From positions 1-21,210 of IMG/VR virus record IMGVR_UViG_3300009419_000125: a stretch of DNA of 21,210 nucleotides; one strand, 5' to 3'. Position numbers and translations under genes: made by a program. Origin of the DNA: a virus. Of the stretch, positions 2,328 to 12,190 are shown piece by piece; position 1 is the first letter of the stretch; every line of letters starts with the position of its first letter. The notes below the pieces were generated by a model. It made no database searches and was not told the origin of the DNA. It saw only the letters and a program-made list of their open reading frames with translations.

Positions 2328-3173
2328 TCACCAGTAAATTTTTGAGCCGTCTAGCGAAAACGTGACTTCCACGCCCGAATTCAACAGGCACGACTCCGAT
2401 GTGTGGTAGTACGCCTCTTGCTCCAGCAGGTGCGACACCCACCGATCAAGATAGCGCCGGACGTCCTCGAAAATGTCCAAGCGAATAACGTCCTTGCCAT
2501 CGGTGCGCGCCGGTTCATTGAGATACCCTTCGACGCGGTAAGCGTTCAGCTTTTGCCCTTTGCACAACTGTAGCCAGATTGCACACAACACCCGCGCCGT
2601 GCCGTCTGAATAAAACCATTGGGCGCGCGGTTCCCGTAGACTCGCCAGAATCAGATCAATCCGGTATTTCTTTAATCCGGTGCGCTGGCAAAGCGCCGCC
2701 ACGAAGTCGGACTGTTTAACGTAGCTCAATCGACCGGCCACCGTCCAACCGCCACCGCGATGTGGTGCAAGCGTCAACTGATCCAGTCCCAACAACGCCA
2801 AGTCCTCAAGAATCAACTCGCGCTCGTCTGAATCGTCATAGTTGGCCGTTTGATCTTCTGCCCACAGGTTCAGCGCCCGTTGCTTAGCCGACTCGCCTAA
2901 ACAATCGTACGGAACCCGAACCGACGCATAGTCATAGTCACAAAGCACCCGCGCCCGTTCTAGGATCAACTCACGCGGTACAGTCGCCAGACCAACCGAA
3001 CGACCCGCCCACTGTAACACGTTTCGTACAGTATGATCCCCAAGGTCGGCGCTAGGATCACGCACTACCGCCACCAATTCTTCGCCGACCTGTACGTCTA
3101 AACATAACGCGGCCACCCCAATCACGCCGTCCAGCGTCTGACGCTGTTCTAGGCTCAATGCTAATTGTTCCAT
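2328..3173 (-). CDS. Unknown 281-residue protein, first gene of leftward operon
   Basis: No family was recognised. The frame is open back to 3239, but ATG 3173 is preceded by AAGGGGAAGC at good spacing, whereas the earlier ATGs have none. The product is acidic overall. An N-terminal helical segment (about residues 1-75) is followed by an Asp/Glu-rich stretch (ANYDDSDERELILEDL, near 130), a small globular part, and a C-terminal region ending SGVEVTFSLDGSKIYW that reads as a beta-hairpin. It is the promoter-proximal gene of the leftward operon, next to the AT-rich control region. Proximity to a putative origin fits an early or replication-linked protein, but nothing in the sequence proves it. 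Confidence 0.65.
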   Translation of the reverse strand: MEQLALSLEQRQTLDGVIGVAALCLDVQVGEELVAVVRDPSADLGDHTVRNVLQWAGRSVGLATVPRELILERARVLCDYDYASVRVPYDCLGESAKQRALNLWAEDQTANYDDSDERELILEDLALLGLDQLTLAPHRGGGWTVAGRLSYVKQSDFVAALCQRTGLKKYRIDLILASLREPRAQWFYSDGTARVLCAIWLQLCKGQKLNAYRVEGYLNEPARTDGKDVIRLDIFEDVRRYLDRWVSHLLEQEAYYHTSESCLLNSGVEVTFSLDGSKIYW

Positions 3174-3255
3174 GATGCTTCCCCTTGTGCCCACAATTGG
3201 GCGTTGACTCGATGGATTCATGATGCAATAGCCGCGCATTTAAGTATGTAACTAA

Positions 3256-3261
3256 ATTGTA
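3256..3261 (-). promoter_or_regulatory. Possible -10 element for leftward operon
   Basis: Read leftward, the hexamer is TACAAT (five of six matches to TATAAT), about 80 bases upstream of the first gene of the leftward operon. There is no good -35 at 16-18 bases, so this is weak unless an activator is used. Confidence 0.3.
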
Positions 3262-3288
3262 TCACGTAGTAAAAATATCGGTATTTTT

Positions 3289-3297
3289 TGTGGATAA
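3289..3297 (-). promoter_or_regulatory. DnaA-box match (TTATCCACA)
   Basis: The nine bases TGTGGATAA are a perfect reverse-strand match to the consensus DnaA box TTATCCACA. It lies on the left side of the AT-rich region, about 250 bases from the most AT-rich core. A single exact 9-mer can occur by chance in 21 kb, so its weight comes from the surrounding repeats and AT content. Confidence 0.45.
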
Positions 3298-3347
3298 CTT
3301 TGAAATACATTTGGCATACAAATACGAAATTGCTCGGGTTGCAGTTA

Positions 3348-3443
3348 TTTTTGTGGTAAGTGACTGAAAACTAAGGGTATGTTCGACGTTATAGAAAGTT
3401 ATGGCGAATTAAAGGCATCCTTTTTGTTGCAAGTGACTGATAA
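3348..3443 (+). repeat. 23-bp imperfect direct repeat pair
   Basis: Copies at 3348-3370 and 3421-3443 share TTTTTGT, then G or T, then G, then AAGTGACTGA, differing at only three positions, and start 73 bases apart (about seven helical turns). A third, degenerate TTTTTGTGG start lies at 3287 and includes the DnaA-box match. They may be operator or iteron sites. Confidence 0.6.
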
Positions 3444-3540
3444 TTATCACGAAGTTGACTCGAAAGTGAAATTATAGAAATTATAGATTTTTTTTGAAAA
3501 AAGGGGATTGGACTCACTTAAAACTTAATGAGAATCATTT

Positions 3541-3606
3541 ACCAAAAAAAGGAAAAAATAAGATAAATAATATAATAAATAATATATATAACTAATATAA
3601 GTAATA
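3541..3606. other. Extreme AT-rich core (possible DNA-unwinding element)
   Basis: This stretch is almost entirely A and T, with alternating TA steps (for example AATAATATATATAACTAATA). It is much more AT-rich than anything else in the window. Such tracts melt easily and occur in replication origins and strong promoters; the assignment is inferred from composition. Confidence 0.4.
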
Positions 3607-3697
3607 TCATCTACTTAGAGACTAAAAGTGAGCATTACTTTGGGTTTTACTTTTGACGCTCGGCAAAGATGCACAACCGGCGCAATCTTACCTGCCC

Positions 3698-3838: not shown

Positions 3839-4315
3839 ATGGCTTCAGCTCTTACACCGGCACAATTAGCAAGCGCTGGCACTGAACACGCGCACCAAAG
3901 GGCATATTTCGCGGCGTTGCGTAGCGAGTTACCCGACATCGAACCGGCACGCCTAGACCTGATTTATGCGATACCAAACGGCGGCCAGCGCTCGGCCAGC
4001 ACGGCGGCTAAACTCAAGGCCGAGGGCGTCAAAGCGGGCACGCCTGACGTATGCGTTCCGATCCCGTCCTGTGGGTATGGTGCGCTATACATCGAATTCA
4101 AAAAACCGAACGTCGGCAAACTATCCGCTGACCAGATCGCGAAAATTGAGCGGCTGCTACATGTGGGCAATCTATGCGCTGTAGTCGAAGATTGGCAGGC
4201 TGCAATCACCGTTACACGGGCGTATCTGACGCACCACGGACTAGAATCGTTGCATAGCCGCCCGTTTGGCGTGATTTGGCTTGTTAGCTCGGTTTGTCCA
4301 CCTAGTCTGGTGTGA
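3839..4315 (+). CDS. VRR-NUC domain nuclease
   Basis: This 158-residue protein matches the stand-alone phage VRR-NUC domain, a PD-(D/E)xK-fold nuclease whose members act on branched or structured DNA. Visible features in order are HQRAYFAALR (19-28), IPNGGQRS (45-52), GVKAGTPDVCVPIP (63-76) with the catalytic Asp70, the E-x-K pair IEFKKP (85-90, Glu86 and Lys88), and KLSADQ (94-99). The later VVEDWQAAI helix is also typical. The last 25 residues are not obviously part of the domain. ATG 3839 is preceded by AAAAGGCG. It sits alone between two repeat-rich non-coding regions, consistent with a role in replication or recombination; that role is inferred. Confidence 0.9.
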   Translation: MASALTPAQLASAGTEHAHQRAYFAALRSELPDIEPARLDLIYAIPNGGQRSASTAAKLKAEGVKAGTPDVCVPIPSCGYGALYIEFKKPNVGKLSADQIAKIERLLHVGNLCAVVEDWQAAITVTRAYLTHHGLESLHSRPFGVIWLVSSVCPPSLV

Positions 4316-4364
4316 TCGTACCGGAAAAAGACCAGAACGGCGTATACGCGATTCTGTGCAGTTT

Positions 4365-4400
4365 TGGCGGGGGTAACTTGGGCATTAAAGCGCCCCGCCA
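4365..4400. repeat. 8-bp inverted repeat around first iteron
   Basis: TGGCGGGG at 4365-4372 pairs with CCCCGCCA at 4393-4400 across a 20-base loop that contains most of the first GGGGTAACTT copy. No T-run follows on either strand, so it is not a typical terminator. Confidence 0.5.
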
Positions 4401-4462
4401 GAAAAATTTAGGGGTAACTTGACCATTAAAGGGGTAATTTTGGGGTAACTAAGGGGTAACTT
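4370..4462 (+). repeat. Array of five GGGGTAACTT iteron-like repeats
   Basis: Copies start at 4370, 4411, 4431 (GGGGTAATTT), 4442 (GGGGTAACTA) and 4453, giving spacings of 41, 20, 11 and 11 bases, close to whole helical turns. The first two copies extend to a 21-bp repeat ending in CATTAAAG with two mismatches. All lie in the same orientation. Such phased direct repeats are typical of initiator or regulator binding arrays; which protein binds is unknown. Confidence 0.75.
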
Positions 4463-4541
4463 AGCTCTTAATAGATAGAAAAATTTCGATAGATTTCGTG
4501 GCGCGTTCGAGATTGCCGGTTACAGTGTATCCCGATTGTAA

Positions 4542-4621
4542 GTGCCAGCATAGTTGGCACGACGATTGCTACGGGCGCGCGCACCTGCGCGTAGGCGTGC
4601 CAACATGCGCGCGTGCACCCG
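4542..4621. other. GC-rich stem-loops, possible structured RNA or ori element
   Basis: GTGCCA (4542-4547) pairs with TGGCAC (4555-4560) over a seven-base loop. Next to it, CGGGCGCGCGCA (4572-4583) pairs with TGCGCGCG (4606-4613) and CCCG (4618-4621), a 12-bp stem with one four-base bulge. No gene with a ribosome-binding site covers the region. Confidence 0.35.
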
Positions 4622-4715
4622 TTTCATCCTATGGCCGGTGGATCAGGGTGCACCGTGGCGCGCTGTGGTGCTGTGGTCGGCTTGTGGCGCGTGCTAAATA
4701 AATGCGTATATTGTG

Positions 4716-4744
4716 TTGACATCGCGTTACCATTGCAGCACAAT
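4716..4744 (+). promoter_or_regulatory. Sigma70 promoter TTGACA-N17-CACAAT
   Basis: A perfect -35 (TTGACA, 4716-4721) is followed at the optimal 17-base spacing by CACAAT (4739-4744, four of six). It lies about 50 bases before the ATG at 4795 and should drive the three small genes up to 6079. Confidence 0.7.
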
Positions 4745-4794
4745 GGCGTCACCAGCAGCGAACGGCGCTACTGGATAGCGTAGGACGAAACGAC

Positions 4795-5016
4795 ATGAGT
4801 GCTCAATTTAGCGTTACTGTGGAAAGTATCAATGACAAAGTGTGCAAAATGCGCGCTGTTTTGGCTGTTGTGTCAGTGGCGCGTGATAGCGAAAATTGCA
4901 TCATTAGACGCGTGCTCAATCGCTCGACAGGCCGCATTTTTATCCTACATGGTCAGCTAGCAAAATGCGCCAAAACCGGCCGCTTTGTATCGTATGCCGT
5001 AGTACATCAATCGTGA
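4795..5016 (+). CDS. Small unknown protein (73 aa)
   Basis: Unrecognised, probably early phage protein. ATG 4795 follows TAGGACGAAACGAC, giving a modest AGGA ribosome-binding site about nine bases away, and lies just downstream of a strong promoter. The sequence is beta-rich (FSVTVESI, AVLAVVSVA, GRIFILHG) with three cysteines and a basic second half, so a small beta-barrel is plausible. Its codon choice, like that of the next two genes, uses many AT-ending codons compared with the late genes. Confidence 0.6.
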   Translation: MSAQFSVTVESINDKVCKMRAVLAVVSVARDSENCIIRRVLNRSTGRIFILHGQLAKCAKTGRFVSYAVVHQS

Positions 5017-5091
5017 TTGTACGTGTTCATTTAGCGCTCATTCTGTGGGCGCTTGTCATCTGTTTTACTACACTTTCTCTGTGAGGCTTCT

Positions 5092-5541
5092 ATGCGTATC
5101 ATTCTCAATATCGGCAATTTTGCGAGCGCCAATTATCAAGATTTAGACGGCAATCAGTTAGACGGCCATGTGATCCCGACACTACCGGCAATCGTTGGCA
5201 CGCTCAAAAGCGCGCTACCTTGTGGCGCGCGCTTAGCCTGTATTGGCTTAGTTGATCGTGGTGAGGATGACGAAAGTACGTTTGTTGTGTATTGCCACTG
5301 TGAGCCAAGCGCATACAATGGCTTTTTGGACGCTGTACAGCACGTAATAGCGCCCACATTGTCACAAGATTGCATTGCGTGCTGTATCGTGGACGCTATC
5401 ACAGCGCCGTTTAGTGGACGTCCTTGCGGTAGTGTTTTACGTGTCGACAGTGGCGTGTTATTAGGCGCGTATAGTGAAGCATGGGGCTGTTTTGCACCAG
5501 AATACTTCGTTACCTATTTTGACGAATTGTGCTATTGGTAA
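5092..5541 (+). CDS. Unknown protein (149 aa)
   Basis: Function not recognised. The frame is open from a TTG at 5053, but ATG 5092 is preceded by GTGAGG six bases upstream and is the likely start. The product begins MRIILNIGNFASANYQDL and contains eight cysteines, including a Cys-His-Cys triplet (VVYCHCEP, about residues 66-73) and CIACCIVD (about 93-100). It is otherwise a soluble alpha/beta protein with an aromatic C-terminus. A strong intrinsic terminator starts ten bases after its stop codon. Confidence 0.65.
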   Translation: MRIILNIGNFASANYQDLDGNQLDGHVIPTLPAIVGTLKSALPCGARLACIGLVDRGEDDESTFVVYCHCEPSAYNGFLDAVQHVIAPTLSQDCIACCIVDAITAPFSGRPCGSVLRVDSGVLLGAYSEAWGCFAPEYFVTYFDELCYW

Positions 5542-10713: not shown

Positions 10714-12190
10714 TTTTACGCCCAAGATCATTTGGCAACCAATCGCCGGAAGCTCACAACAGTTTGCGCTGGACAGTCGCGCCCACCACACGCTTTACTG
10801 CGGTACGCGCGGTTGCGGCAAGACCGACGTGCAGCTCATGTCGTTCATGAAACACGTCGGTCGCGGCTACGGTCGCTACTGGCGTGGTATTATTTTTGAC
10901 CGAGAATACAAGAACTTAGACGATATTGTAGACCGGACAAAGCGCTGGTTTAAGCAGCTATGCCCTGAAGCCAAATTCCTTGAGAACAAGGCCGACTACA
11001 AGTGGGTCTGGCCGACCGGCGAGGAGCTGTTGATCCGCGTCGCCAAGAAGGAAAAAGACTACTGGTCGTACCACGGGCAGGAGTTTCCCTTCATCGGTTG
11101 GAACGAGCTGACCAAGTACCCGAGTGGCGACTTGTACGATTTGATGACCTCGTGTAATCGTTCGTCGTTCCGGCCACCTGTGGGCAGCGACATCCCTGAG
11201 ATCCCGACAGTCGTGTTCAGCACCACGAACCCGTGGGGCGCAGGTCACCGCTGGGTTAAAGAGCGGTTCATCAATCCAGCGCCGTACGGCAAAGTGGTCA
11301 CGCACACGCAACGCATTCTTAACCCGCGTTCCGGCCAGCTTGAGGATTTCACGCTGACCCAAGTTGCCATTTTTGGTGCGTACTACGAAAACACGTTCCT
11401 CACACCTGCGTACATTGCACAGCTCACCAAGATCAAGAACCGCAACATGCGCAAGGCGTGGTTGCTTGGATCGTGGGACGTGGCGTCAGGCGGGGCGTTC
11501 GACGACGAGTGGGACAGCGACTACAATATCATCAGTAACTTCTGCATCCCGTCAGAGTGGCGCACGTTCCGCGCGTTCGACTGGGGATCGTCAGCACCTT
11601 TCGCCGTCGTCTGGTTCGCCGTCACGGACGGAACCGAAGTCATACTGCCCGACGGCAGTATTTTCGCACCCCCGCGAAACTCGCTCATTGCCTTCGACGA
11701 GTGGTACGGTATCAACGATGACAGGAAGGGCGTTGGCCTGACGCCAAGTGCCATCGCTTTCGGCATTCGCAATCGGGAGACGCACTTTCGTACGGCAGCC
11801 TATATTGAAGGCGACATCCCGAACGCTGGGCCAGCCGACGGTCAGATTTACAGCATTATCTCGCATGAGACGAAGACTATCGCCAAGCTCATGGAGGAGT
11901 GCGGCGTGCACTGGGTTCGCGCGGACAAGTCCAAGGGTTCCCGCGTCAACGGGCTGGCACTCGTACGCGACCGGATGACCAACGCCAAGAAATGCGAAGG
12001 GCCTGCGCTTTACATCATGCGACGTTGCCGCTACTCTATCGAGACAATTCCGGTGCTTCCTTTGGATGCCGACGACATGGACGACGTAGACAGCGATGCT
12101 GAGGATCACCTTTACGATGTGTTCCGGTACGCTGTACTTGCCGACATTGCACGGTACACGATGGATCTCGCCATAGATTTTGGAGCTTGA
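10688..12190 (+). CDS. terL: Terminase large subunit
   Basis: This 500-residue packaging motor combines an ATPase and a nuclease. Walker A is GTRGCGKT (39-46). Walker B with its catalytic glutamate is FPFIGWNEL (133-141, Glu140), and the coupling motif is STTNP (178-182). The nuclease domain begins around FRAFDWGSSAPFAVVWF (295-311), where Asp298 is the first metal ligand, and the late acidic motif DAEDHLYDVFRY (470-481) supplies another. It drives DNA into the prohead and cuts it. The start lies inside the small-subunit gene with GGAGGG upstream. Length and motifs look complete. Confidence 0.95.
   Translation: MSSLSKTPDFTPKIIWQPIAGSSQQFALDSRAHHTLYCGTRGCGKTDVQLMSFMKHVGRGYGRYWRGIIFDREYKNLDDIVDRTKRWFKQLCPEAKFLENKADYKWVWPTGEELLIRVAKKEKDYWSYHGQEFPFIGWNELTKYPSGDLYDLMTSCNRSSFRPPVGSDIPEIPTVVFSTTNPWGAGHRWVKERFINPAPYGKVVTHTQRILNPRSGQLEDFTLTQVAIFGAYYENTFLTPAYIAQLTKIKNRNMRKAWLLGSWDVASGGAFDDEWDSDYNIISNFCIPSEWRTFRAFDWGSSAPFAVVWFAVTDGTEVILPDGSIFAPPRNSLIAFDEWYGINDDRKGVGLTPSAIAFGIRNRETHFRTAAYIEGDIPNAGPADGQIYSIISHETKTIAKLMEECGVHWVRADKSKGSRVNGLALVRDRMTNAKKCEGPALYIMRRCRYSIETIPVLPLDADDMDDVDSDAEDHLYDVFRYAVLADIARYTMDLAIDFGA

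Follow-up and report, generated by a model that had tools for sequence, protein, structure and literature searches.

A helically phased array of decamer repeats beside a VRR-NUC gene in a phage genome fragment and its possible link to replication

A non-coding gap in a phage genome fragment holds five direct copies of the ten-nucleotide unit GGGGTAACTT, which form an array that is not due to chance and is helically phased. The array is probably a landing strip for some protein. We tentatively favor, with a probability of about 40%, the reading that it consists of iteron-like sites bound cooperatively by a phage protein and that its role is probably tied to replication. The window analyzed here, that is, the whole stretch of 21,210 bases, is itself a fragment of the virus. 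The array and its nearest surroundings comprise the following features:

4370..4379, + strand: copy 1, exact GGGGTAACTT, within the hairpin 4362-4403
4411..4420, + strand: copy 2, exact GGGGTAACTT, followed by GACCATTAAAG
4431..4440, + strand: copy 3, GGGGTAATTT, one mismatch to GGGGTAACTT
4442..4451, + strand: copy 4, GGGGTAACTA, one mismatch to GGGGTAACTT
4453..4462, + strand: copy 5, exact GGGGTAACTT
4362..4403, no strand: inverted repeat TTTTGGCGGGG/CCCCGCCAGAA, surrounding copy 1
3839..4315, + strand: VRR-NUC nuclease gene (Pfam PF08774, 8.7e-7; phrog_824, 3e-40), directly upstream of the array
4716..4744, + strand: sigma-70-like promoter match TTGACA-17-CACAAT, beginning about 250 bp past the array

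All five copies lie on the + strand, with start-to-start steps of 41, 20, 11 and 11 bases. The first-pass annotation had described five repeats in one orientation with these spacings; this holds, except that copies 3 and 4 each deviate from the unit by one mismatch. Its remark that the spacing approaches whole helical turns was confirmed, as the copy starts are phased at 10.5 bp with a resultant of 0.92 (P ~0.02 against random placement over the same span). Anywhere in the 21,210 bases, no further copies of GGGGTAACTT with at most one mismatch were found. When two mismatches are allowed, the unit occurs 15 times in the whole window against 12.2 ± 3.4 expected by chance; there is no excess at this level, and the signal of the array is therefore that of a local cluster. 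The 8-mer GGGGTAAC is present in four copies within 93 bp, a density reached in none of 200 shuffles of the window (first-order Markov) and in none of 2000 shuffles of the local region. This cluster is the sole repeat family of its kind in the window.

According to the ORF listing, the gap that holds the array (4316-4497) is non-coding, and the array starts 55 bp after the stop of the VRR-NUC gene. To the right are small ORFs of unknown function, followed by an endolysin-like gene, terminase, portal and more structural genes; the terminase shares about 53% identity with those of phages of Variovorax, Burkholderia, Pseudomonas and Achromobacter. To the left of the VRR-NUC gene, a 600-bp divergent gap separates it from leftward genes without a known family, the sole exception being the last of them, which is PAPS-reductase-like. 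The array had been placed in a non-coding region between the VRR-NUC gene and an early promoter. Its non-coding nature is upheld, while the promoter amounts to a sequence match some 250 bp downstream. The GC-rich stem-loops reported next to the array come down to the single hairpin at 4362-4403, which contains copy 1 and folds no better than shuffled sequences (z -1.0). A reading of the array at the RNA level was dropped, as we found 0 Rfam families and no significant fold.

In the iteron-like reading, a phage-encoded DNA-binding protein would assemble side by side on the array, along one face of the helix. The five direct, phased sites would serve a phage replication initiator or its regulator, and they would do so from a place just behind the VRR-NUC gene, with the origin-like region 3240-3640 lying about 0.75 kb away. 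From the form and the place of the array we infer protein binding, a phage-encoded binder and a role in replication, the phage origin of the binder being counted here because the 21-kb fragment contains no initiator gene. Arrays of iterons are found at origins of phages and plasmids, the lambda O sites and the P4 alpha sites being examples. Like these, the array has several direct 10-nt copies, helical spacing and a non-coding setting with a replication-type gene nearby. Unlike these, it has no proven initiator gene and no proven A+T-rich unwinding element. The iteron-like reading is supported by the phasing, by a clustering that exceeds all shuffles and by the identity of the nearest gene, a nuclease of the replication/recombination type. 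It is also supported by the cumulative GC skew, which turns at 3.5-4 kb, although the gene directions turn there as well.

The best origin-like sequence of the window is found on the other side of the VRR-NUC gene:

3240..3640, no strand: origin-like region, a divergent intergenic gap with an A+T-rich stretch to ~3610
3356 and 3429: TAAGTSAYTGAAAAC-type motif, in the 3240-3640 region
3289..3297, - strand: exact DnaA box TTATCCACA, in the divergent gap

The region also contains three IHF-like sites with one mismatch each. Three TTTTTGTKG-led repeats were observed there as well. In a weight-matrix scan of the window, the best motif site was that at 3356 (P 0.002 for the gap); among the top six sites, two others fall in the same divergent gap and none falls at the array. 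The TAASYCATTGAAA motif, a companion of such arrays elsewhere, was not detected at the array, where scores are far below that of 3356, and no IHF-like site is present in 4200-4800. The idea that the array is part of a TAAGTCATTGAAAAC element was dropped after the weight-matrix test, which pointed to 3356 instead. The array has no internal copy of CTAASYCATTGAAAAC and thus does not make up an element of CTAASYCATTGAAAAC plus array. Searches of the window for DUF3987 and AAA_25 gave no match; initiators of other types may escape such searches, and the record is fragmentary. Judged by sequence, the origin-like region and the array are separate features. The proposal of replication iterons or a cooperative operator, already made in the first-pass annotation, is consistent with a phased direct array and with arrays of other units in related phages. 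It fares less well as regards an origin at the array itself, where no other origin feature is found.

How the motif at 3356 and 3429 should be read was assessed in other viruses. Its 17-mer form, GCTAAGTCATTGAAAAC, matched 118 viral stretches, and 73 of 84 instances (80 loci) were located outside ORFs. At these places (L273-L352, besides the two in the window) the 17-mer is non-coding and often flanked by phage-specific direct repeats; it occurs after PrimPol/RepA genes and sometimes near tRNA ends. For viral loci of the TAAGTCATTGAAAAC motif, 22 of 54 distinct contexts had at least three copies of a phage-specific 7-mer nearby (9% in the control), and 11 loci had a PrimPol/RepA-type ORF within 4 kb. 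By analogy, such loci would support the iteron-like reading of the array. Proximity to tRNA ends was seen for 3 of 54 contexts versus 7 of 1080 background stretches. We infer that the TAAGTCATTGAAAAC motif is IHF-like because its complement, WWWTCAANNNNTTA, resembles an IHF site; this resemblance and the proximity to tRNA ends led us to give up the motif as origin-specific.

Related phages were sought at several levels. The whole window has no phage relatives at the megablast level, and neither has the region 4200-4800 by blastn. With the array as the query, the matches were confined to short stretches in phages and a single one in plasmids. For the neighboring ORFs 2328-3239 and 5089-5541, no confirmed relatives were found in viral contigs. 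Since a single-sequence TerL query returned just one relative, an alignment was used as the query instead. It yielded 80 TerL relatives (identity at most 54%), 27 of which keep VRR-NUC upstream; in none of these 27 did we find a GGGGTAA cluster at that place or any repeat array adjoining VRR-NUC. Conservation in close relatives had been put forward as a check on the array, and the outcome is negative: no syntenic relative has the unit, although all of them are distant, as the TerL identity indicates.

Some related phages within the same range of TerL identity (L229, vB_PmaS-R3, L221 and L266) do have intergenic arrays, built of other units of 8-10 nt. In L229, the array of GTTTAATG directly follows a DUF3987 primase-helicase gene and precedes a PD-(D/E)XK nuclease gene. 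In Paracoccus phage vB_PmaS-R3 (12.6 kb), the array of GTATAATGG is located ~1 kb past the primase gene. L229 and vB_PmaS-R3 resemble the window in belonging to the same terminase group and in having a unit of 8-10 nt repeated in an intergenic gap close to replication genes. They differ from it in the unit itself, in the position of the array after a primase gene and in that both arrays flank CTAASYCATTGAAAAC, an accompanying motif that the array in the window lacks. By analogy, arrays of other units in related phages, two of them at or near a primase gene, would support the iteron-like reading. So does an array of GGGGTAACTT itself in L144, which has no adjacent integrase and follows a DUF5906 gene by ~2.3 kb. 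Counting against this reading are the missing unit in the 27 VRR-NUC relatives, the lack of both TAASYCATTGAAA and an IHF-like site at the array, the lack of an initiator gene in the window and the appearance of GGGGTAACTT elsewhere as an integrase arm site. If the copies are iterons, the array together with 3240-3640 would point to where replication starts in a phage group that is little known, and would offer a simple binding test.

Alternatively, the array might be an operator or upstream activating array, on which a phage transcription factor binds cooperatively to control the rightward genes from 4795 on. Direct repeats one helical turn apart would suit such binding, and a promoter match does lie downstream, at 4716-4744. 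Moreover, one of the eight genome matches of the 11-bp-spaced pair described below (L173) is upstream of a gene for an HTH_3 regulator. However, the distance of about 250 bp between the last copy and the promoter match does not favor this reading, nor does the lack of a regulator of known family among the neighboring genes tested. Promoter matches in the region are also few and modestly above chance (7 sigma-70-like matches against 3.7 ± 2.2 expected). On balance, we consider an operator unlikely, roughly half as probable as iteron-like sites.

Slightly less probable still is the reading of the copies as orphan arm-type sites for a tyrosine integrase, with the array making up one arm of an attachment site. 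The integrase would then come either from a part of the genome beyond this fragment or from a different element. The reason to consider it comes from bacterial genomes. The 11-bp-spaced pair GGGGTAACTWNGGGGTAACTT occurs eight times in ~85,000 bacterial species genomes, and in four cases a tyrosine integrase gene carries it at the 5′ end. In one of the four (L175), the array has a tmRNA- or tRNA-like 3′ end on one side and, on the other, an integrase that combines the domains Arm-DNA-bind_3, Phage_int_M and Phage_integrase; in the others (L176, L170 and L172), the pair sits at the 5′ end of a gene with a Phage_integrase domain. As for the remaining occurrences, L171 has the pair directly after an apparent tRNA 3′ end (with no ARAGORN gene call there), the flank of the pair in L174 is homologous to L172, the L173 pair is the one upstream of the HTH_3 regulator gene, and in L177 the pair is within local repeats. 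A complete tRNA gene (Arg in L188, Ser in L191), the array and an Arm-DNA-bind_3 integrase gene follow one another in two further elements. In L162 and L164, a tmRNA 3′ end takes the place of the tRNA beside the array and an Arm-DNA-bind_3 integrase, and in L164 arm pairs flank the tmRNA end on both sides. These further elements are islands and prophages, in which the unit flanks the tRNA or tmRNA 3′ end. Position and domain content identify GGGGTAACTT as a predicted arm-type site in these integrase elements. The opinion that no array with this unit was known is thereby superseded, as the unit recurs beside tyrosine integrases in several phyla. A literature search for the unit or motif returned no description of this array within its coverage, from which subscription journals were largely absent.

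The array in the window shares with the arm sites of P4-like integrases (Arm-DNA-bind_3, PF13356) of several phyla the same 10-nt unit, the direct orientation and a step of 11 bp (11-12 bp in the arm sites). It differs in having no integrase, no tRNA/tmRNA core and no inverted copy, and in having five copies, some of them set 41 and 20 bp apart, steps that are unusual for arms. The 21-kb record, a fragment, gave 0 matches to PF00589 (Phage_integrase) or PF13356. Next to the array there is no tRNA and no T-arm-like sequence; the search covered cores of the tRNA/tmRNA type, whereas non-tRNA cores would need host sequence. An inverted copy, GTTACCCC, is absent from the window. In addition, both flanks carry phage-type genes, and a tyrosine integrase is present in only two of 26 TerL relatives, 24 being without one. 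Arrays with no Phage_integrase match in their own record also exist elsewhere (for example, L087, L096, L101 and L105). If these are orphan arm sites, phages that lack an integrase could engage those of other elements. Whichever reading holds, direct pairs of GGGGTAACTT beside P4-like integrases and tRNA/tmRNA ends in several phyla represent a candidate conserved arm-type site, usable as a marker for attachment sites.

A relic of tandem slippage without function is improbable. Short-period G-rich words readily expand, and the unit is not kept in relatives. Decamer pairs within 31 bp occurred in 74 viral stretches, whereas the reversed control gave 10 (a sevenfold difference); most of the decamer pairs lie inside ORFs and about a quarter outside, and the viral excess of GGGGTAACTT pairs stems largely from coding repeats. 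On the other hand, the steps of 41, 20, 11 and 11 do not represent one period, yet the copies are in helical phase, and the stretches separating the outer copies share nothing but CATTAAAG. Least probable of all is that an integrase-less phage uses the array, as a set of arm-type sites, to integrate with the borrowed integrase of another element, or as a decoy to titrate away the integrase of a rival island.

Several other repeats came to light in these searches. L105 has about six copies of TTGATTCCCTYGGGGTAAC at 11020-11449 around a 104-aa ORF, near a gene for the ArdA antirestriction protein. Iteron-like direct repeats inside ORFs occur in L028 (6672-6728), L066 (3615-3650) and L009 (2514), the repeat-bearing ORF of L028 matching only families of unknown function. 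Decamer pairs with a period of 12 inside ORFs were rejected as binding arrays, as most of those translated encode PQVT/PEVT peptide repeats in proteins of different kinds. One 12-nt repeat thus gives rise to PQVT/PEVT peptides in dissimilar phage proteins (L107, L108, L109, L116, L115, L093, L117 and L145), among them a membrane protein, a pyrimidine-dimer glycosylase-like protein and a ribonucleotide reductase.
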